Source: Candidatus Hydrogenedentota bacterium (lineage in GTDB: Bacteria > Hydrogenedentota > Hydrogenedentia > Hydrogenedentales > SLHB01). Taken from it: a DNA stretch of 51,041 bases. The DNA is taken from positions 1 through 51,041 of the forward strand of contig JACRLJ010000168.1 of NCBI GenBank assembly GCA_016215105.1, in the 5' to 3' direction. The first letter of the stretch is position 1; every line of letters starts with the position of its first letter. The notes below the pieces were generated by a model. The model had not been told where the DNA came from, did no database searches, and was given only the letters and a program-made list of their open reading frames with translations. The position numbers and the translations under genes are program-made. Below are positions 10,062 through 36,866 of this stretch, one piece after another.

Positions 10062-10085
10062 CCCACGGCTCGCGCCGTGGGCTAC
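10062..10085 (-). repeat. REP-like hairpin, family E
   Basis: Perfect 8-bp stem CCCACGGC/GCCGTGGG with loop TCGC, followed by CTAC. On the minus strand it reads GTAG plus hairpin. A smaller hairpin GCCCC/GGGGC follows at 10094-10108. Confidence 0.65.
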
Positions 10086-10148
10086 CGTCTGCCGCCCCTT
10101 GCCGGGGCTAAAGTTGCGGTCACGATGTAGCGTGGCGCCGGCGTTCGA

Positions 10149-18501: not shown

Positions 18502-18647
18502 GCTGCGTTCTCCCTTCCTCGTCTCTGATACGTATTGCGGGGACTACCCCATTCGTCGATCCGAAACAATAGTCGAATCGGGAGGGCGCTGCAAGAGAGT
18601 GGTAAGGCGAGTTGGGCCGATTGGCTTGTGTGGCTAGATGCAGCAGA

Positions 18648-18672
18648 ACGGTTCGGCGAACCGTCCCTACCC
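18648..18672 (-). repeat. REP-like hairpin, family D, copy 1
   Basis: Stem ACGGTTC/GAACCGT with loop GGC, followed by CCCTACCC. It lies between the fucosidase and the BLIP-like gene. The same core occurs at 22298. Confidence 0.7.
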
Positions 18673-18751: not shown

Positions 18752-19531
18752 TCAGCCGGTGGGTCCTTTCTTCCACGTCTTCGCGGTAACGCGACCGTTG
18801 TGAAAACGAATCTCGGCGTAGTCGCCACCGGGATTGACCCACTTATACGCTTCGTCAAGCGTATTGTTCCCGCGCGCTCGTCCGCTTAGTATGGCGTTAC
18901 GCTGGGCGGTATAGCCACGCGCCATGGGATTCTCTTCTCCGATGATCCGAACGCATTGGTCGTACGTCATCCCCGTCTGAATCTGTTGATACTCATCGGG
19001 AGTTACGGTCACGGCGCGTCCACTTCGCGCCGCTTTCTGCTGCAATCGGCTCACCTCGCTGGAATCAATGACCTTCGTTTGCGTGTCGATGTTGCGTAGT
19101 TGCTTCAACGCTTGCGCCTTTGCGCCGGACGTCATATTCATACCCTTGCCCATCAAGCGTCCATTCAGGAAAGAGAGCGTGTACTGATTACGCCCGTCGG
19201 CATCGAACCACGCATACGCCTCGTTGGCCCCCGGGGTGGGCGCCACTGCGATTCCTTCGCAACCAACCACTTGGACACACTGAGCGTAGGACATACCCGT
19301 GCGAACACGGAAGAACTGTGCCTGTGTCATCATCGGACGGGCGGGCGGTACAGCTTGGGCGGCAAGGGCGATCGGATCTGGCGCGGGCACGTTTTTCGCG
19401 GCCGGCTCTTCCGTGGTGATACCGGGCCCAGGCTGCGTACCCGCGTCCGGCGTTTTTGGACGGACAACCAGAGGAAGCGCAAGTACGAACACAATCAGGA
19501 TTCCTGCCCAAGCGATGATTCTTGTGTTCAT
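18752..19531 (-). CDS. Membrane-anchored protein with two BLIP/DUF3862-like domains
   Basis: Protein of 259 aa with an N-terminal membrane anchor (residues 5-22) and a Pro/Ala-rich linker. Two repeats follow, at about residues 70-132 and 178-258. Each has the pattern FxxxxxGMSYAQCVQVVG (second: YQQIQTGMTYDQCVRIIG), then an aromatic strand ending in FxNGRxxxK. This resembles the DUF3862/SmpA/beta-lactamase-inhibitor-like fold. It is the next gene after the sigma-factor fusion, 28 bases away in the same direction, so it may be part of that system. Function unknown; protein binding outside the membrane is a reasonable guess. Confidence 0.65.
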   Translation of the reverse strand: MNTRIIAWAGILIVFVLALPLVVRPKTPDAGTQPGPGITTEEPAAKNVPAPDPIALAAQAVPPARPMMTQAQFFRVRTGMSYAQCVQVVGCEGIAVAPTPGANEAYAWFDADGRNQYTLSFLNGRLMGKGMNMTSGAKAQALKQLRNIDTQTKVIDSSEVSRLQQKAARSGRAVTVTPDEYQQIQTGMTYDQCVRIIGEENPMARGYTAQRNAILSGRARGNNTLDEAYKWVNPGGDYAEIRFHNGRVTAKTWKKGPTG

Positions 19532-19559: not shown

Positions 19560-22154
19560 TTATCCGCGTTCGTCAACGGTGAGGGGATGGACGGACACGG
19601 TCTCTTCGGCCCTACGCTCTCCGGCTTTGCCGCTGTAGAGAATACTTGCCCCACTTCCTTCCGGCGAATGGAACAGGCATTCAATTCTCGCATCGGGAAT
19701 CAGCCCGCTGACGAGGATGCGCCCGGCGGCGTCCGTGCGCTGTGGCCACGTCCAAACTCGGTACCCGTTTTCGAAACGCTCGCGCACCTCGGTAACGCAG
19801 CCGGCAAGGGGCCTCCCAGCGGCGTCGGTCACTCGAAACTCCCGCGCGCATGGTTCCGGGATGATGAAATCCATCGAACGGGCGGCGCCACCCGCCGTCA
19901 CGTCCACCGTGACCGTATACGCTTCTTCAGGAGTTGGGCGGCACAACGAGCCATCTCGCGTGTACAGCGGCGTGACGAGATACTTGCCAGGCTTGGAGTA
20001 GACGCGCAGTTCAAATCGTCCGTCCGCGTCCGTGGCCGCCTTCGTGAATTGTGGCGCCGCCATGGAACCAGCGTCCGCGTTTTCGCAATGAATCGTAATA
20101 CCCGAAAGCGGCCCGCCCAAGGTCTTGCCGCGAACCTGTCCGCGAACTACGGCGGGCTTCCCTATCCGGTAGTTCCAAGTAAACTTCTGCCCGGGATTCA
20201 GCCGGCCGATTTCGAGGCCTTCGCCGAGCGACGCGCCATCGGAAGCACTAATGGTCACGGCCACGTCCCGGTCCGGTTGCACATTGTCAATCTGGTATAC
20301 ACCCTTCGCATCAACGGTAGTCCGCGTAGATCCGAAAGCAGCCCCTCCCATACCTCCTCCGCCTCCAAAGGACGCGCCGTCCGCCGACACGATCTCGTTG
20401 TACTGAATGATTGGCGCGGTCACCATGACTACGGCGCCGGACGCCGGCGAACCGTCGTCCCACACGATACTTCCACTGATAGACGCCATGGCTGGCATTC
20501 GTAGCTCCAGCAAGTCCTTCGATTCGGTGCGCAGATCGGAGAAGACCGCATTCCCGCTCGAGGCCGCGTCCACCGATAGCGTAAGCAAGCCGTCGCCGCC
20601 AACGGTCAGGGCGAATTCGCCGCGCTCATTGGTTCGACGCCAGTCCCAGGGCATAGCGCCGCCCATCGTGCCGCCCGCGTTGTTCGGTCCAGACTGAAGC
20701 ATCGCCGTGACTCGAACCACCGCGCCAGCGATTGCGTCTCCCTTGGCGCTGAGGACACGTCCCCGAACCGGAATTCCACGGTCGAGAACTATCGTCTGCT
20801 TTTCATTGATATCCTTTAGCGATAGAGTCGCACATTTCGTCATATAGTTTTCGGCTTCGACCCGCAATACCGCGGCCCCGGTACGCGGCGCCTTTTCTAT
20901 CGCAAACTTCCCGTCAGCCCCGCTTAGAGCCGAGATAGCGCGTTGCGCGTCTTCCGCCTGCGGAGTAACCGCCGCGAGGATTGCGTAATCCTGGGCCGGG
21001 TCGTTTGCTTTAGGAAACGGGAGGCCGTCGGGGTCGTTTTCCGAAGAAACCATCCCCATAGAGATTCCGGCAACTGGCGCAGCCGCCTTGGCGGCGGAGA
21101 ACAGGGTCACCTTCGCTTGCGAGATGGGATTGCCCGCCTCATCAAGTACGATACCTTCGAGGCGCCCAGTGTCGACGTGCGCAGGGGCACTCGCGGTCAC
21201 GGCGTTCGTAGCGATGCTCGCGCCGGGAGACTCGGACAGGCGCGCCGTGTTGGTTTGTGCGGCGGCTACTGACGATGCACGATTCGACGTTGCGGCAGGC
21301 TGAGGAACTTGACCCGACGCGATGACGCCACTGTCCGAGTCGTCTGTCGACGCCTCGTTGCTCCCATTGCGGACTAGCAGGACCGTTCCCGCTACGACCA
21401 CAAGCACTCCGGCGACCGCCAGCAATTTCACCTTTGCAGTGGTAAGCGCCTTCACGACATCCGTGAGGCCGGTGGCGCCGGGTGTCTCACTGGAACCAGC
21501 CGCCACGGAGGCGGCCACCTTCCACGGCGGCGTTATTGTGGCGATTACACCGCCGATCCGAATAATCCTCGCGTCACGTCTAGCCGCCGCCTCGTTGTTC
21601 TTCGATGACGACTCCAAGCTCTCCAACAAACGATCACCAAGGGTCTCTCGGGCCCGCTGCAACCGTTTTGCCGCCGCGGCGGGTGAGACGTCCAGGATTT
21701 TCGCGACGTCCACCACGCTGTGTCCCGCGAAGTATCGCAGCATGAGAATCTCGCGCTGCTCGTCGTCCAGGGCATCCAGGTGACGCCGTAACAGTTCCTC
21801 CGTTTCCTTCTGCTCCAAGTCGGAAGCCGGAGCGGGCTCGCTCACTTCGGCGGACCGTTCGAGTTCCCGGCGGCGCTCCGCCCTCGCCCTCACCTGGGCG
21901 CACACGTTGCGGGCAATCACCGCCAGCCAAGCGCCGATTCGTTCGGTGTCGCGCAACGTGTGAAGCGACGTAAACGCTCTGACGAATGTTTCCTGTGCAA
22001 CGTCCTCGGCGTCCGCGTGGTTCCGCGATCGGGCGTATGCGACCGCTTCGACCATGCGCATGTACCGGCGCACGAGCGTATTGAACGACTCCCGTTGCCC
22101 TGACAAGACTTGGGCAACAAGCGACTGGTCGGTTGAAGTGTTTGCTGCGTTCAT
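19560..22154 (-). CDS. ECF sigma factor fused to a membrane segment and carboxypeptidase-regulatory-like domains
   Basis: An 864-aa fusion. Residues 1-180 are an ECF sigma factor: region 2 (NHADAEDVAQETFVRAF at about 45-61) and region 4 (LDALDDEQREILMLRYFAG onward, 127-170). A membrane segment follows at 243-261, then a Ser/Thr/Ala-rich linker and several carboxypeptidase-regulatory or CnaB-like beta-sandwich modules from about 332 to the end (RLEGIVLDEAGNPIS, then VRGRVLSAKGDAIAG, ISGSIVWDDGSPASG, VRGQVRGKTLGGPLSG). The sigma part would be cytoplasmic and the Ig-like part outside, giving a sigma factor tethered to its own sensor. Planctomycetal ECFs with long C-terminal extensions are known, but I do not recall this exact arrangement. 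No separate anti-sigma gene is adjacent. Confidence 0.85.
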   Translation of the reverse strand: MNAANTSTDQSLVAQVLSGQRESFNTLVRRYMRMVEAVAYARSRNHADAEDVAQETFVRAFTSLHTLRDTERIGAWLAVIARNVCAQVRARAERRRELERSAEVSEPAPASDLEQKETEELLRRHLDALDDEQREILMLRYFAGHSVVDVAKILDVSPAAAAKRLQRARETLGDRLLESLESSSKNNEAAARRDARIIRIGGVIATITPPWKVAASVAAGSSETPGATGLTDVVKALTTAKVKLLAVAGVLVVVAGTVLLVRNGSNEASTDDSDSGVIASGQVPQPAATSNRASSVAAAQTNTARLSESPGASIATNAVTASAPAHVDTGRLEGIVLDEAGNPISQAKVTLFSAAKAAAPVAGISMGMVSSENDPDGLPFPKANDPAQDYAILAAVTPQAEDAQRAISALSGADGKFAIEKAPRTGAAVLRVEAENYMTKCATLSLKDINEKQTIVLDRGIPVRGRVLSAKGDAIAGAVVRVTAMLQSGPNNAGGTMGGAMPWDWRRTNERGEFALTVGGDGLLTLSVDAASSGNAVFSDLRTESKDLLELRMPAMASISGSIVWDDGSPASGAVVMVTAPIIQYNEIVSADGASFGGGGGMGGAAFGSTRTTVDAKGVYQIDNVQPDRDVAVTISASDGASLGEGLEIGRLNPGQKFTWNYRIGKPAVVRGQVRGKTLGGPLSGITIHCENADAGSMAAPQFTKAATDADGRFELRVYSKPGKYLVTPLYTRDGSLCRPTPEEAYTVTVDVTAGGAARSMDFIIPEPCAREFRVTDAAGRPLAGCVTEVRERFENGYRVWTWPQRTDAAGRILVSGLIPDARIECLFHSPEGSGASILYSGKAGERRAEETVSVHPLTVDERG

Positions 22155-22297
22155 CGTTCTATCCCCTCCTCTACAGTATAGAGCGGTCTCGTCGCGATCT
22201 CATGACAGCGAATTGAAAACTTCGGCGGGCTAGAGGCGCGGCCAGAAAGCCTCCGTTTAACAAAACTCTGCAAAAGCGGGGGACACAGAGAAGGCCA

Positions 22298-22376
22298 GGA
22301 CGGTTCGGCGAACCGTCCCTACCCCACGCACACGGGTAGGGACGTTTTGCCAAAACTTCCCGGCGCCAAAACGTCC
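22298..22376. repeat. REPIN-like inverted pair of hairpins, family D
   Basis: First element 22298-22325: perfect 9-bp stem GGACGGTTC/GAACCGTCC, loop GGC, then CTACCCC. Second element from 22336: GTAG, then GGACGTTTT, loop GCC, AAAACTTCC (one mismatch); a perfect partner AAAACGTCC also occurs at 22368-22376. The two tetranucleotides face each other across ten bases, as in a head-to-head REP doublet. It lies in the gap between the sigma fusion and the GntR gene. Confidence 0.7.
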
Positions 22377-31219: not shown

Positions 31220-34200
31220 CTATCGCAGGCTAAAATCCAGGACTATATCGGCCCCTTCGGTGAGGTTGACGACCGATGAGGCGTGCCGCAGTTGCGGCAG
31301 GGCTTCCGCACTTTGGGACGGCGCGGAATAGGCCACGACGGTATATACGCCTGGGGGCACGCCGTCAAGATTGTAGGCGCCGTCGGGCGCAAGCGTCATC
31401 GAAGCCACGTCGATCTCCTGATAGTGCGCGTACAGTTCGGGCGTGACGGTTGCGGGGATGGCGACCTCGCCTTGCAGCACAGCGACACCGCTGTAGCCGC
31501 CGGTGGCGCCGGTAACCGTCCCGTGTATTCGCGCGGGCAAGGTGGTGACGATGTCCTGGCGAACGGCGCCGCCGCTTGGTATAACGACTTCAATGTTGAT
31601 CCGACCTTGCCGTTCTCCGTCGGAGGCGCTTCCTGTCAAAGTAGCCGTGCCTTGAGGCAGGGCGTCGAAGCGGTAGGACCCGTCAGATTGGATTTGGGCG
31701 TGTGAAGACTCGTCCCCGGAGGATGTGGTGACGGTAGCCTGGATGAATCCGCTGACGGCGGGCTTTCCCTGAACGGTGACAATACCGGAGAGGGCCGTCG
31801 AGTAGGGCGGGAAATTGAAGTCCACGACCACGTTTTGGCCCGCCGTAACCGTCACGGCGCGCTGCAACTGGCGGCTCGAGGTGTTGTTAATGGAGAATCC
31901 CGCAACCACGGTCACATCACCCGGCAATACGTTTTGGAACTCGTAAGTACCATCCGGCTTCACTTGGGTGGACTCCTGCGTCTGGCGGCCGGCGACTTGC
32001 AGGCTAATCCAGGTATGGCCGGCGCCGCCTGAGCCTGTAGTGACGCGGCCGGTAATCGATCCGCCCTGGTTCAGCACAATTTCGACCCGTGTGGTTCCCG
32101 AGGACGCGAGATTCGCAGTAACCGTGGCGGGCGCATATTGCGGATGATACGCGGTTAGCGTTACCGAGGCGCCGGAGGCGTTATTTACGGTGAACGATCC
32201 GTCCGCCGCGCTCTGAGCGATGCTCGAACGTTCACGTTCCCAGCGTTGCGGCAATTCGCCCAGGTAGATGAGCGCGCCGGACACAGGTTGACGAGTCGGA
32301 CTAAGGACGACGCCCTGCACGCCAGCCCCCGGTTGCAGCCGGATCACGACATTGCCGAGCGTTTGTCCCGGTCCGACCTGCCCGATTGACTGCACCACCT
32401 GGCTGTAGCCCTCGCCGCGGACCGCGAGGCTGGTATCGCCAGACTCGACATTGGGGAGGCGGAAATGGCCGGTCGAGTCATACACTCGAATGAAGCTCTG
32501 ATTCATATAGGGCTGCATGGCGGACTGGTTCCCCTGCAAAGCCTGAATTTCAAACGCGGCGACCGGAGCGCCGGTCCGCGCGTCGAGAACCTGTCCCTCG
32601 ACCGATCCGCGTTCCTGAAGCTGGAAGTCCACTTTCGTGTCGCCGGCGTTCGCGCTGCGCGATTGGCGGCTAAACTCGCCGTGCTGCACGTTAACCGTGT
32701 ACTCACCCTCTTTCAAGCCGGTCAGGGTGTAGGCGCCGGAGGGGTCGGTTCCGACATACGCGTACGACGGACCTTGCGCATTGATTTGCGCATTCTGGAC
32801 GGGGGCGCCTTTGGGATCTGTCACGGTTCCCGTGATGGATAAGCCCGTGTTCCCGGTATAGACCAGCCGTACGCCGGTCACCTGCGCGCCTGACGCGACC
32901 TCGATGTTTTCCGGGCTCTCACTGTTGGAGCTATATCCGGAGGGGCTAGATATATTGATTCGGTAGGAGCCCGGCGTGAGCCGGGTGAAGACGAATTTTC
33001 CCTGATCGTCGGCAAATGCCTCGTTGCTCATGGGCCTGCGGTTCGCCTGGTCGTACGCATACAACCGAACCTTCGGAACAGGTTTGTTGTCGGGATCTAC
33101 GACGATCCCCGAAATGCTTCCGTTACGTTCCTGGTCGAGGACCAGCTCGACGTTGTCAAGACCATTCTCCGTGAGCGTTAGCGGCCCCACCTGCTTGCTC
33201 ACCAGGTCCTGGTATTCGGCCCAGAGGCGCACCGGACTGGCCAAGGAAAAACCCTTGACTTCAAACTGGCCGTTCTCATCGGTGCTGCTCGAGCCTCCTC
33301 CCCAGCCGCTTTCCGACATGCCGCTCACTTGGGCCTTCGCAACGGGCTGTTTTTGGGTGTCTATGACGCGGCCACGAACGCTGACGCCGCCTTTGAGCGG
33401 GATATCCACGTTCGGGATTTCTTTGCCGAGGGGGACACTTACGATGATTCCGTTTCCATTACGGCCGTAGCCGGGGGCATCCTGGATCTGGATGTTGTAC
33501 ACGGCCTCGCTCAGACCCGCAAGGCGGTAGGCGCCATCGGCGTCCGTTGGCTCCGACTTCCGTGGATAGAATCCCTGGCTCTGACAGTACGCCATCAGTT
33601 TGACGCCTTGAATTCCGCGCTTTGTGTCGGAGTCGTACACGCGGCCCGTAATCACGCTTCCCGACGCCACGCGCACTTCGATCCCGGTTACCGGACGGCC
33701 TTCAGCCACGGTGATTTTCGGACTCTCCCCAGCTACAACAAGGAGAGGATCATCAAGGGAAACCCTGTAGTCCGCCGGCCGCAAGGCGGGGAAGTTGAAG
33801 CTCCCTTGCGCGTCGGAGGTGGCCTTCTGGAAGTCAGTGATATAGTCCTTCGGGTTGACTTGAACAGTAACGCCGGCTTTGGGTTCTCTGGTCTGGGCGT
33901 CGAGCACCTTTCCGGATACGCTGCCGCCGGCTTTGAGCACGAGGCGCGCGTCCGTGGCGCCGGTGCTCACGTAGTCGCTAATGAGCGTAGCGTGACCTTC
34001 CGCACGGACCATGATCTTCCATCGGCCCTTGGGAAGGGCGGAAAATGCGAATGCGCCCGTGGCGTCGGTCTCCACGCGAGCACCGGAAGAAAACGTGTAG
34101 CGCCGATTGCGATCCTGTCCTTCTTGTTCGAACGGAACGAGCAGCGCCTTGTCTACTGGCTTTTCGTCAGTATCGAATACGTGACCGGCCAAGGCTGCAG

Positions 34201-34768
34201 CGTGCTCCAGTTTCAGCGTTATGTCCGCGCGCGGGCGCTCACGAGCAATCCAAGCGAATTGGGCGCCTGCCGAGTCTTCCGTCGAAGCCGTGAGGAAATA
34301 CTGCCACATGCCCATCGGCAGGTGATCGAACTCGAATCGTCCGTTGGCGTCGCTCTGCGCCGTGGAGCGATCCGCTGCGGAAGGAGGTTGGAACGGCTTG
34401 TCGTACTCGAATTTCTCTAGAGTCACCGTGATTTGCGGAACGGGCTGATTATCAGGATTCAGCACAATGCCAAAGACTGCCCCATCGCCCCTTTCTTTCG
34501 GTCCGGCGCCGGCCTTGCGGGGCCCTTCTCCGCCACTGCTCCTCGCGATAACTTCGGGCTTGGATGGAGTGGCTGAGGTGGATGACGCGTTGGCAGAGGC
34601 CGATTCATCGTCGGCGCCATTGCGCGAGGTCCGCGTCGCAGAGGCGGCGGACTTGTTCGCCGCTGGTGACTCCTCGGTTGGGCTCGATTCTCGGAACAGA
34701 TACCAGACACCAAAGCCAAGCACGATAAACACCGCGGCGATAACCGCCGTACGCACGTTTTGATTCAT
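31220..34768 (-). CDS. Large membrane-anchored protein of carboxypeptidase-regulatory-like repeats
   Basis: Protein of 1182 aa with an N-terminal membrane anchor (residues 8-25), a Ser/Ala/Thr-rich linker to about 95, and then a string of roughly eleven Ig-like modules of the carboxypeptidase-regulatory type. Each starts like ISGIVVDPDNKPVPKVRLYAY or VSGKVLDAQTREPKAGV, followed by a DANGxFxFxxLPxGxY strand. This architecture suggests an extracytoplasmic adhesin, stalk or scaffold without enzymatic residues. It is read in the same direction as the histidine kinase gene, 80 bases downstream of it. The sigma fusion at 19560 uses the same module type. Exact module count is approximate. Confidence 0.82.
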   Translation of the reverse strand: MNQNVRTAVIAAVFIVLGFGVWYLFRESSPTEESPAANKSAASATRTSRNGADDESASANASSTSATPSKPEVIARSSGGEGPRKAGAGPKERGDGAVFGIVLNPDNQPVPQITVTLEKFEYDKPFQPPSAADRSTAQSDANGRFEFDHLPMGMWQYFLTASTEDSAGAQFAWIARERPRADITLKLEHAAALAGHVFDTDEKPVDKALLVPFEQEGQDRNRRYTFSSGARVETDATGAFAFSALPKGRWKIMVRAEGHATLISDYVSTGATDARLVLKAGGSVSGKVLDAQTREPKAGVTVQVNPKDYITDFQKATSDAQGSFNFPALRPADYRVSLDDPLLVVAGESPKITVAEGRPVTGIEVRVASGSVITGRVYDSDTKRGIQGVKLMAYCQSQGFYPRKSEPTDADGAYRLAGLSEAVYNIQIQDAPGYGRNGNGIIVSVPLGKEIPNVDIPLKGGVSVRGRVIDTQKQPVAKAQVSGMSESGWGGGSSSTDENGQFEVKGFSLASPVRLWAEYQDLVSKQVGPLTLTENGLDNVELVLDQERNGSISGIVVDPDNKPVPKVRLYAYDQANRRPMSNEAFADDQGKFVFTRLTPGSYRINISSPSGYSSNSESPENIEVASGAQVTGVRLVYTGNTGLSITGTVTDPKGAPVQNAQINAQGPSYAYVGTDPSGAYTLTGLKEGEYTVNVQHGEFSRQSRSANAGDTKVDFQLQERGSVEGQVLDARTGAPVAAFEIQALQGNQSAMQPYMNQSFIRVYDSTGHFRLPNVESGDTSLAVRGEGYSQVVQSIGQVGPGQTLGNVVIRLQPGAGVQGVVLSPTRQPVSGALIYLGELPQRWERERSSIAQSAADGSFTVNNASGASVTLTAYHPQYAPATVTANLASSGTTRVEIVLNQGGSITGRVTTGSGGAGHTWISLQVAGRQTQESTQVKPDGTYEFQNVLPGDVTVVAGFSINNTSSRQLQRAVTVTAGQNVVVDFNFPPYSTALSGIVTVQGKPAVSGFIQATVTTSSGDESSHAQIQSDGSYRFDALPQGTATLTGSASDGERQGRINIEVVIPSGGAVRQDIVTTLPARIHGTVTGATGGYSGVAVLQGEVAIPATVTPELYAHYQEIDVASMTLAPDGAYNLDGVPPGVYTVVAYSAPSQSAEALPQLRHASSVVNLTEGADIVLDFSLR

Positions 34769-34848: not shown

Positions 34849-36708
34849 TCAGCCGTCAGCCGGCGGCTTGGTGGGAAGAACAACCGTGAAACAGGCGCCT
34901 TGGCCCGGGGACGAGGTAAGGGTGATTCGGCCGCCGTGCGCGTTGATAATTCCGTACGACACGCTGAGGCCGAGACCGGTACCCTCGCCAATACCCTTGG
35001 TGGTGAAGAAGGGGTCAAACACGCGGGAAACTTTATCCTTCGGGACGCCTGGACCGTTGTCCTCGAAGCGGATATGGACGTCCTGGTCCTTGAGGAAGGT
35101 GCGAATTTGAAAGGTTCGCTTGCGATCCTCGACGTTCACGAGCGCCTGCTGCGCGTTATTGATTATGTTGAGGAAGACCCGTTGGATTTCATGAGGGTCT
35201 ACGCGAAGCATTGGCAACGTACGGTCAAGTTCAATGATCAGATCAATTCCATCCACCCGGAGCTGGTACTCGCGAAGGGAGAGCGTCTGTTCGAGAAGGT
35301 CATTGATTTGTTGCAGCGATTTCTCGGGTTCGTGATGACGCGAGAAACTCAACAGATTTTGCACGATGCGGCGGCAACGGGTGGCTTCTTCCGTAATGTG
35401 TTCGAGTTTGGACTTGAGATTGGCGTCAACCTTGGCGGAAATCAACAACTGGGAATACCCCAAGATGCCCGTCAAGGGGTTATTGAGCTCATGGGCGACC
35501 CCGGCCATGATCTCACCCAGGGATTGCAGTTTCTCGGATTGAATTAAGCTTTGCTCGAGCGCCATCTGATCCGAGATGTCCAACATGAGCGCCAGGACCC
35601 CGCCGGGCGCGTCGGCGTTCTCCCACAGCGGAACGACTAGCAGGTCGCAGTTGACAGTGGCGCCGAAGCGGGTCAGAAATGAGTAGCGGCGGCGAGTGCG
35701 GTAATGGCGTTGACTCGTTCCCTTAAGGACGGAAGTGAATTCAGGATCGGGCACGGCGTTGAGACCCGGAAGTGATTGCCCGACCATATCGTGCATGGAC
35801 GGCGCGCCGTAGAGCATAACGGAGGCGGTGTTGGCGTCAAGGATCACCAGATCGCTGTCGGTTGTAATGATGCCTATCGGCGCGTGCGCGATGATGCCCG
35901 CCAGATACGTTTGGGAGTAGCGGTACTCCTGCTGAAGGCGGAGTTCCTGGCGCAGGTCCCGCGCGACGAAGACCATCCCCGCACAACCGGTTTCGGTCAC
36001 GAGGGGACTGGCAGTAATTTCGACCGGAATCGCCTGTCCGTCCTTGACCAGCAGATCCACCCGGTCCAGGATATCAATGGGATATGGAAGGGCGTCAGGG
36101 CCGGCAAGCGCCTTGTAGCGGGCCGTGGCCACGGCGACATACTCTTCCGGCAGGAAATCACAGATGCTCAAGCCAGCGGTGACATCGTCGCAGGTGTAGT
36201 GTGTGGCGTGCTGGCCTTTCCGGTTCAGGTAGAGAACCGTCCCATCATCGTCACACAACAGCACGAGATCACGGGTCGCAGCAAGCACACCTTGCAGGAA
36301 CGAGACCAGTCCGCGGGTATCTTCCGAAGGGGTAGGGATCCACCCCTCGTTGAGTCGCCGCAGCAGAACGGCGATCTCGCTATTTAGCGCCGGACGGGCG
36401 AGGGTGTGACGGATGCAGCGACGTATGGCGCGTTCCGCGGCGGCGTAATTAGGATCGTCGGCTCGTTCGTTCAGCAAACACAGGCTTTCCGATTCGAGCG
36501 CGCGCACAAGGCGCTCGGTCATTGCGGGGCTCGCGCCAGCCGCGCGGAGCGGTTGAATATCAAGAGCCGAACCACTTTCGATGGCGCCGGCTACTTGCTT
36601 GGCGAGTTGGCCGATCTCGGGGCGAAACCGCCCCGCGCCGTCACCAGCCGCAACGGCGTCCGCCAGGCGCTCCCTACTCGACTCTAAGACTCTTAGGAGA
36701 TCGTCCAC
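34849..36708 (-). CDS. PAS-domain sensor histidine kinase
   Basis: Sensor kinase of about 619 aa. I prefer the GTG at 36708, with GAGGGG nine bases upstream; an ATG at 36807 extends the frame by 33 residues that look noncoding and lack an SD. There is no membrane segment, so it is cytoplasmic. After a helical N-terminal region come two PAS domains (about residues 137-257 and 264-382), the dimerisation helix with phospho-acceptor His406 (MAGVAHELNNPLTGILGYS), and the ATPase domain with N box (IINNAQQAL), DNGPG and GTGLGLS motifs. No response regulator is adjacent, so its partner is elsewhere. Confidence 0.9.
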   Translation of the reverse strand: MDDLLRVLESSRERLADAVAAGDGAGRFRPEIGQLAKQVAGAIESGSALDIQPLRAAGASPAMTERLVRALESESLCLLNERADDPNYAAAERAIRRCIRHTLARPALNSEIAVLLRRLNEGWIPTPSEDTRGLVSFLQGVLAATRDLVLLCDDDGTVLYLNRKGQHATHYTCDDVTAGLSICDFLPEEYVAVATARYKALAGPDALPYPIDILDRVDLLVKDGQAIPVEITASPLVTETGCAGMVFVARDLRQELRLQQEYRYSQTYLAGIIAHAPIGIITTDSDLVILDANTASVMLYGAPSMHDMVGQSLPGLNAVPDPEFTSVLKGTSQRHYRTRRRYSFLTRFGATVNCDLLVVPLWENADAPGGVLALMLDISDQMALEQSLIQSEKLQSLGEIMAGVAHELNNPLTGILGYSQLLISAKVDANLKSKLEHITEEATRCRRIVQNLLSFSRHHEPEKSLQQINDLLEQTLSLREYQLRVDGIDLIIELDRTLPMLRVDPHEIQRVFLNIINNAQQALVNVEDRKRTFQIRTFLKDQDVHIRFEDNGPGVPKDKVSRVFDPFFTTKGIGEGTGLGLSVSYGIINAHGGRITLTSSPGQGACFTVVLPTKPPADG

Positions 36709-36866
36709 CTGATATTTCCCCTCAAGACCTGTTTCCACTATACCAGAGCTGCCTTTCGTTTCAAAGCAAATCGCATGGAATTCTAGGCCGTTTGACTTCC
36801 CCCGCATGACATGGTTGAATGGCGCGTCTTGATTGTCACAGGGTTCTACGTTGAAAGGAAGAAACC

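Follow-up and report, generated by a model that had tools for sequence, protein, structure and literature searches.

The window, that is, the whole stretch of 51,041 nucleotides analysed, contains on its minus strand the gene for a one-piece protein at positions 19560 to 22154, delineated by a single open reading frame, Pfam matches and family-wide homologues. The frame runs from an ATG at 22154 to 19560 and encodes 864 amino acids without an internal stop, a GGAGGGG-type ribosome site precedes the start codon, and the plus-strand frame over the same positions carries many stops. The coordinates put forward in an earlier sequence-only reading were thus correct, and the strand, which that reading had left unstated, is minus. 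Upstream of the start codon lies a weak promoter-like site of the housekeeping type (ATGAGA-17-TATACT, 22175 to 22203, minus strand, 9/12 matches), which by itself is no evidence, since the region holds three such sites with 1.3 expected. The encoded protein consists, in this order, of an ECF sigma factor, a juxtamembrane element, one helix, a linker and five carboxypeptidase-regulatory-like (Ig/transthyretin-type) modules. Sigma-70 region 2 (residues 27-94, positions 21873 to 22076, minus strand) was assigned by PF04542 (Sigma70_r2; 1.2e-13, 51.1 bits, cut-off 24) together with the alignment to the sigma-E structure 1or7, and region 4 (residues 121-172, positions 21639 to 21794, minus strand) by PF08281 (Sigma70_r4_2; 1.8e-11, 43.9 bits, cut-off 25.7), each Pfam family named in this protein scoring above its curated cut-off. 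The presence of regions 2 and 4 places it among the ECF (sigma-70 group 4) factors, and Pfam found no match to regions 1.1 and 3. A PDB search aligned residues 6-176 with E. coli sigma-E (1or7, 3e-14) and the sigma half with further chains, such as SigW, CnrH, SigH and other ECFs; the structure search returned no solved homologue for the sensor half. Single-sequence AlphaFold models of residues 1-275 and 323-864 reached pLDDT values of 44 and 36, a poor quality that makes them unusable for a fold search.

The only strong membrane segment is a single transmembrane helix at residues 242-260 (21375 to 21431, minus strand; mean Kyte-Doolittle value 2.55), placed by hydropathy and by the charges in 59 fused proteins. 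It is followed by a linker of about 67 residues (residues 263-329, 21168 to 21368, minus strand), defined from the sequence and from the composition across the same 59 proteins, which is rich in Ser, Ala, Thr and Pro and free of Cys. The modules start near residues 330, 462, 557, 668 and 770 and comprise, all on the minus strand, module 1 (residues 330-461, 20772 to 21167), module 2 (462-556, 20487 to 20771), module 3 (557-667, 20154 to 20486), module 4 (668-769, 19848 to 20153) and module 5 (770-864, 19563 to 19847). The first four were defined by PF13620, alignment A2 and motif positions, with the best PF13620 match at residues 670-728 in module 4, and the fifth by alignment A2 and comparison with partner-bearing members; CarboxypepD_reg matches at 5e-25 in four stretches. 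About 600 residues lie past the helix, and some 535 of them belong to modules, close to the approximately 530 claimed by the sequence-only reading, whose central observation of ECF regions 2 and 4, a membrane segment and modules in one frame is borne out by Pfam scores above the cut-offs and by the hydropathy of the helix.

Between region 4 and the helix lies a conserved juxtamembrane element, RIIRIGGVIATITPPWK (residues 196-212, 21519 to 21569, minus strand), recognised in an alignment of 26 class I members with the consensus [RK]-I-M-x-A-[IV]-[LA]-A-x-P-V-x-W. Position 197 is I or V in 25/26 and position 211 is W in 21/26 of these members, a conservation above that of the flanking columns. 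The corresponding element of class II differs (RRGV...L.ALL....AEAAP..L...LGRLALSG), and class III carries a segment of the type KRF..GA.LGPV. In a tree of 106 sigma domains, which contains many weakly supported forks, the fused proteins, with classes I-III assigned by eye from these juxtamembrane segments, mostly cluster according to class and are separated from the majority of short ECFs. The class-specific juxtamembrane elements are, by inference, candidates for intramolecular inhibitors.

The sigma gene is followed, 28 nt past its stop, by a gene for a partner protein of 259 residues (18752 to 19531, minus strand; Pfam BLIP, 3.3e-8 in two stretches), which contains an N-terminal hydrophobic signal or anchor at residues 5-23, a Pro-rich linker and two BLIP/BamE-like repeats. 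The genome holds one copy of the partner gene. Among the 60 relatives, the two best homologues of the partner (7e-21 and 2e-16, the remainder 2e-11 or weaker) are located at G031:C533 and G004:C332, 11 and 24 nt downstream of fused genes, and these fused genes encode the two top-ranked sensor relatives of the 864-residue protein. Since the partner homologues follow the closest sensor relatives, whose sigmas are of class III, the partner is associated with the sensor rather than with the sigma factor. Most aligned relatives possess a sixth module, which is absent from the 864-residue protein and two other partner-bearing members; a C-terminal truncation of the former was considered and rejected, as two partner-bearing relatives also end after module 5. 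Besides this secreted BLIP/BamE-like protein, the neighbourhood contains an alpha-L-fucosidase gene and a divergent GntR regulator with an ABC transporter, which confirms that no anti-sigma gene is adjacent, as had been read from the sequence.

Copies of a palindromic intergenic repeat of the GGGACGGTTCGCCGAACCGTCC type are found at 18646-18667, 22298-22319 and 22339-22360, with none expected by chance, and border the two-gene unit of sigma and partner on both sides; similar words occur upstream of the fused sigma genes L090 and L054. The word GACGTTTTGCCAAA was rejected as a promoter word, being part of a dispersed palindromic repeat. Elsewhere in the window, positions 10062-10109 of the plus strand match the Acido-Lenti-1 RNA family with 43 bits, above the gathering score.

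When used as a query against its own genome, a draft of 6.68 Mb in 171 contigs, the 864-residue protein matched 41 places, whose frames correspond to 39 ECF-like ORFs. Fourteen of the encoded proteins, the query included, are single-pass proteins of 602-1213 residues with the order sigma2-sigma4-helix-long outer part; in addition, L003 (322 residues) combines a helix with a short tail, L006 is a polytopic protein, and helix-less extensions of other kinds occur in a few ECF-like ORFs. Sigma regions 2 and 4 were both present in 20/20 long ECF paralogues scanned, and carboxypeptidase-regulatory-like modules in 14/20 by Pfam. A search of 60 genomes (own included; 43 genera, one order) gave matches in all 60, many of them in open frames of 700-1400 residues, and alignment A2 contains homologues from other genera and families that align end to end with the 864-residue protein at 22-28% identity. 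The collection of homologues with the same order of parts, which the sequence-only reading had proposed as a check, hence yielded the 14 single-pass proteins at home and more in relatives. Some proteins with the same plan (L138-L142) were also found in a Planctomycetota sample, and the architecture is therefore not limited to one order; a further example from this phylum, L144, combines a class II-like juxtamembrane segment with a helix. A scan of the genome contig collection returned one short Planctomycetota ECF and no other, and in the viral collection 14 contigs gave ECF-like matches, with the fused plan in none of their ORFs of at least 300 residues. When the charges flanking the helix were compared in 59 distinct fused proteins, the sigma side was the more positive in 41 and the less positive in 10 (p 6e-7, the proteins being non-independent samples), a bias consistent with sigma inside and sensor outside; hydropathy and charge favour this topology.

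Several further arrangements were observed in the course of these searches. Adjoining fused sigma genes occur as tandem pairs in L070:1569-6707 and L074:4327-10097 and as a convergent pair in L054:1356-7653, which suggests local duplication. Other ECF fusions include a 451-residue protein (L015:1372-2727), in which a class II tRNA-synthetase core domain of the PheS type (7e-29) continues the frame of the ECF. The same genome also encodes an ECF fusion with DUF3738 (L007:1369-2751), a protein-kinase-like sequence after sigma (L008:1492-3117), an ECF probably joined to DUF6596 (L066:1308-2747; ECF42 type, as judged from a pooled Pfam scan) and an ECF with eight hydrophobic helices (L006:1474-3198). 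Within the window, the minus-strand frame at 31220-34768 encodes a protein of 1182 residues in which a helix (residues 7-25) is accompanied by a linker rich in Ser and Ala and by many carboxypeptidase-regulatory-like modules; it has no sigma part and resembles the sigma device reduced to its outer half. It is preceded on the same strand by a PAS histidine kinase gene (34849-36807, minus strand).

The two halves of the 864-residue protein differ in their relatives. By its sigma half it belongs to class I, the best sigma relatives being class I proteins of approximately 42-53% identity, and those checked (L081, L083) gave no match to its sensor half. The closest relatives of the sensor half likewise carry sigma and helix, apart from one truncated at a contig end, which allows no judgement; their sigma halves are of classes II and III, and the 864-residue protein is the only class I member among them. 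The best sensor relatives L158, L171 (a partial sequence) and L022 hold ranks 68, 126 and 49 in the ordering by sigma half. Class II forms a clade in the sigma tree (support 100/100); on the sensor tree several class changes are required, and forcing class II together was rejected (AU p 0.015, to be read with caution given the long branches). As its sigma half belongs to one class and its sensor half to another, natural chimerism is the most likely origin of the 864-residue protein, and the sequences suggest that fused proteins have swapped sigma and sensor halves during evolution.

In E. coli, the sigma-E pathway employs separate genes for the sigma factor, its anti-sigma factor RseA and a modulator, and in the RpoE-RseA-RseB system an envelope signal leads to site-1 and then site-2 proteolysis with release of sigma, a working principle that the mechanism proposed for the 864-residue protein would share. 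The 864-residue protein differs in that RseA has no recognised counterpart, and its partner, judged by co-inheritance and predicted location, may play an RseB-like part in sensing. No fused anti-sigma fold was recognised in the protein; a genome-wide search with the zf-HC2 model gave five anti-sigma matches, all beside helix-less ECFs (C92, C50, C85, C87, C47) and none beside any fused ECF. The fused genes are mostly solitary, without a recurrent neighbour. The promoter motif that the sequence-only reading had hoped to find shared was not recovered: the upstream regions of the fused genes contain no common autoregulatory motif beyond that of shuffles, and a TCTATACTGTAGAAT-like box, considered as a family motif, was rejected as probably the housekeeping -10 element.

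ECF factors held at the membrane by fusion are known in principle. In Pseudomonas putida, Prc and then RseP release the sigma/anti-sigma hybrid IutY (ECF243; PMC5411451, PMC8999054), which like the 864-residue protein unites an ECF sigma inside, one helix and an envelope-side regulatory domain. The outer part of IutY, however, is an anti-sigma domain that works with a neighbouring TonB-dependent receptor, whereas here it is a carboxypeptidase-regulatory-like array; Pfam at E up to 0.1 found no FecR-type anti-sigma domain in the protein, and no TonB-dependent receptor gene is adjacent. ECF52 (SCO4117 of Streptomyces) shares the union of sigma, membrane segment, linker (proline-rich in its case) and outer, extracytoplasmic binding domain in one protein, for which proteolytic release has been proposed; in ECF52 a zinc-finger anti-sigma domain precedes the helix and the outer part carries a carbohydrate-binding module, and the group is described as exclusive to Actinobacteria, with a single member in S. 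coelicolor (PMC5826349) as compared with about 14 fused sigma copies in the Hydrogenedentota genome. By Pfam and the genome-wide zf-HC2 matches, no zf-HC2 domain lies between sigma4 and helix of the 864-residue protein, and Pfam recognised in its outer part only carboxypeptidase-regulatory-like modules above the cut-off and no carbohydrate-binding module. ECF57 of Planctomycetes resembles it in being an ECF with a long C-terminal extension, made of WD40, and its sigma2 and sigma4 are linked by a conserved pair of cysteines (PMC8999054); Pfam gave no WD40 match in the 864-residue protein, and the cysteine pair is absent, its sigma part having a single Cys at residue 85. The literature searched describes no ECF fused to carboxypeptidase-regulatory-like arrays; the principal re-classification of ECFs (2021) and the surveys of planctomycetes, which may contain one, lie outside its scope.

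What the sequence itself shows is the arrangement of parts in a single frame, its recurrence, the lack of an anti-sigma that is adjacent or recognisably fused, the different ancestry of the halves and the co-inherited partner. The interpretation to which we give somewhat better than even credence is one-component transmembrane signalling, with a tethered silent sigma, outer sensing, two-step proteolysis and sigma release. A cytoplasmic ECF sigma would be tied via the juxtamembrane element and one helix to five modules arrayed on the envelope side, and in the intact protein the tether and the element would bar sigma from RNA polymerase, replacing an anti-sigma factor. As no anti-sigma fold was recognised, this silent state would rest on tethering and on the uncharacterised juxtamembrane element. 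An envelope or extracellular condition would be read by the modules, probably together with the BLIP/BamE-like partner; engagement of the array would expose the linker to a site-1 protease, an RseP-like site-2 protease would then cut in the membrane, and the freed sigma would direct RNA polymerase to its regulon. The genome encodes M50 site-2 proteases, one of them RseP-like with a PDZ domain, one S41 (Prc-like) protease and 12 trypsin-like matches above the cut-off; these are general proteases, hence candidates and no proof of use on the tethered sigma. The one-piece membrane-tethered design that the sequence-only reading had envisaged is well supported by dozens of homologues, the charge pattern and the missing adjacent anti-sigma, and the regulated proteolytic release it had suggested is plausible by analogy with IutY.

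Among other explanations, switching by conformation without proteolysis survives best, although we consider it unlikely: the juxtamembrane element would clamp sigma, the sensor would open it through the helix and the still tethered sigma would recruit RNA polymerase. The conserved, class-dependent motif between region 4 and helix would suit such a clamp, and ECF41 and ECF238 are switched by extensions without cleavage (PMC8999054), but a single-pass helix with a long linker fits cleavage better than transmitted torque, and IutY, the known envelope-sensing fused sigma, is cleaved. That an anti-sigma encoded elsewhere holds sigma, with the fused outer part merely localising it, is improbable; anti-sigmas are too divergent for one Pfam model and the genome-wide search covered zf-HC2 only, yet all five matches adjoin other ECFs, and the solitary fused genes offer no recurrent neighbour for the role. 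Similarly improbable is a sigma permanently active at the membrane, so that envelope genes would be transcribed locally and sigma would undergo no regulated release: this draws on the tether, the one feature directly visible, but would leave the co-inherited partner and the sensor arrays, large and exchanged as they are, without a signalling role. We give very little weight to a transcriptionally inactive sigma half in a mainly envelope-structural protein with a cytoplasmic anchor, for which the sigma-less 31220-34768 protein of the same helix-linker-module plan could be cited, since retention of both sigma regions would be unexpected in a degenerate anchor, and regions 2 and 4 score above the cut-offs here and are both present in every long ECF paralogue scanned. 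An assembly chimera, in which a sigma gene was misjoined to an envelope-protein gene, can be practically dismissed despite the differing closest relatives of the two halves and the draft state of the genome, because the frame is open across the junction, GC content is even over the gene and the junction matches nothing else among the fused ECFs compared, leaving no shared repeat to misjoin, while recurrence of the plan in dozens of proteins from many assemblies, together with the single open frame, shows that the fusion is not an artefact; the outcome that the sequence-only reading had named as fatal, namely halves encoded as separate genes and an error at their junction, was accordingly not encountered, and an assembly or split-gene artefact was rejected.

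Beyond signalling by the single protein, a wider proposal is advanced tentatively and at less than even confidence: a large receptor-sigma family, the sigma counterpart of one-component receptors, may exist in these lineages, in which class-specific juxtamembrane elements replace anti-sigmas, and in which sensors and partner genes are exchanged, so that old inputs would be rewired to new regulons. In the literature covered, fused membrane-sensor sigmas are single cases such as IutY or actinobacterial groups such as ECF52 and its kin. Here they constitute a common format, with about 14 per genome, no recognisable anti-sigma and a conserved juxtamembrane element as a testable candidate inhibitor. 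The fused family makes it testable whether a tether alone silences a sigma factor, the natural chimera suggests that sensor and sigma are interchangeable, and such a modular design offers itself for membrane-to-promoter switches.
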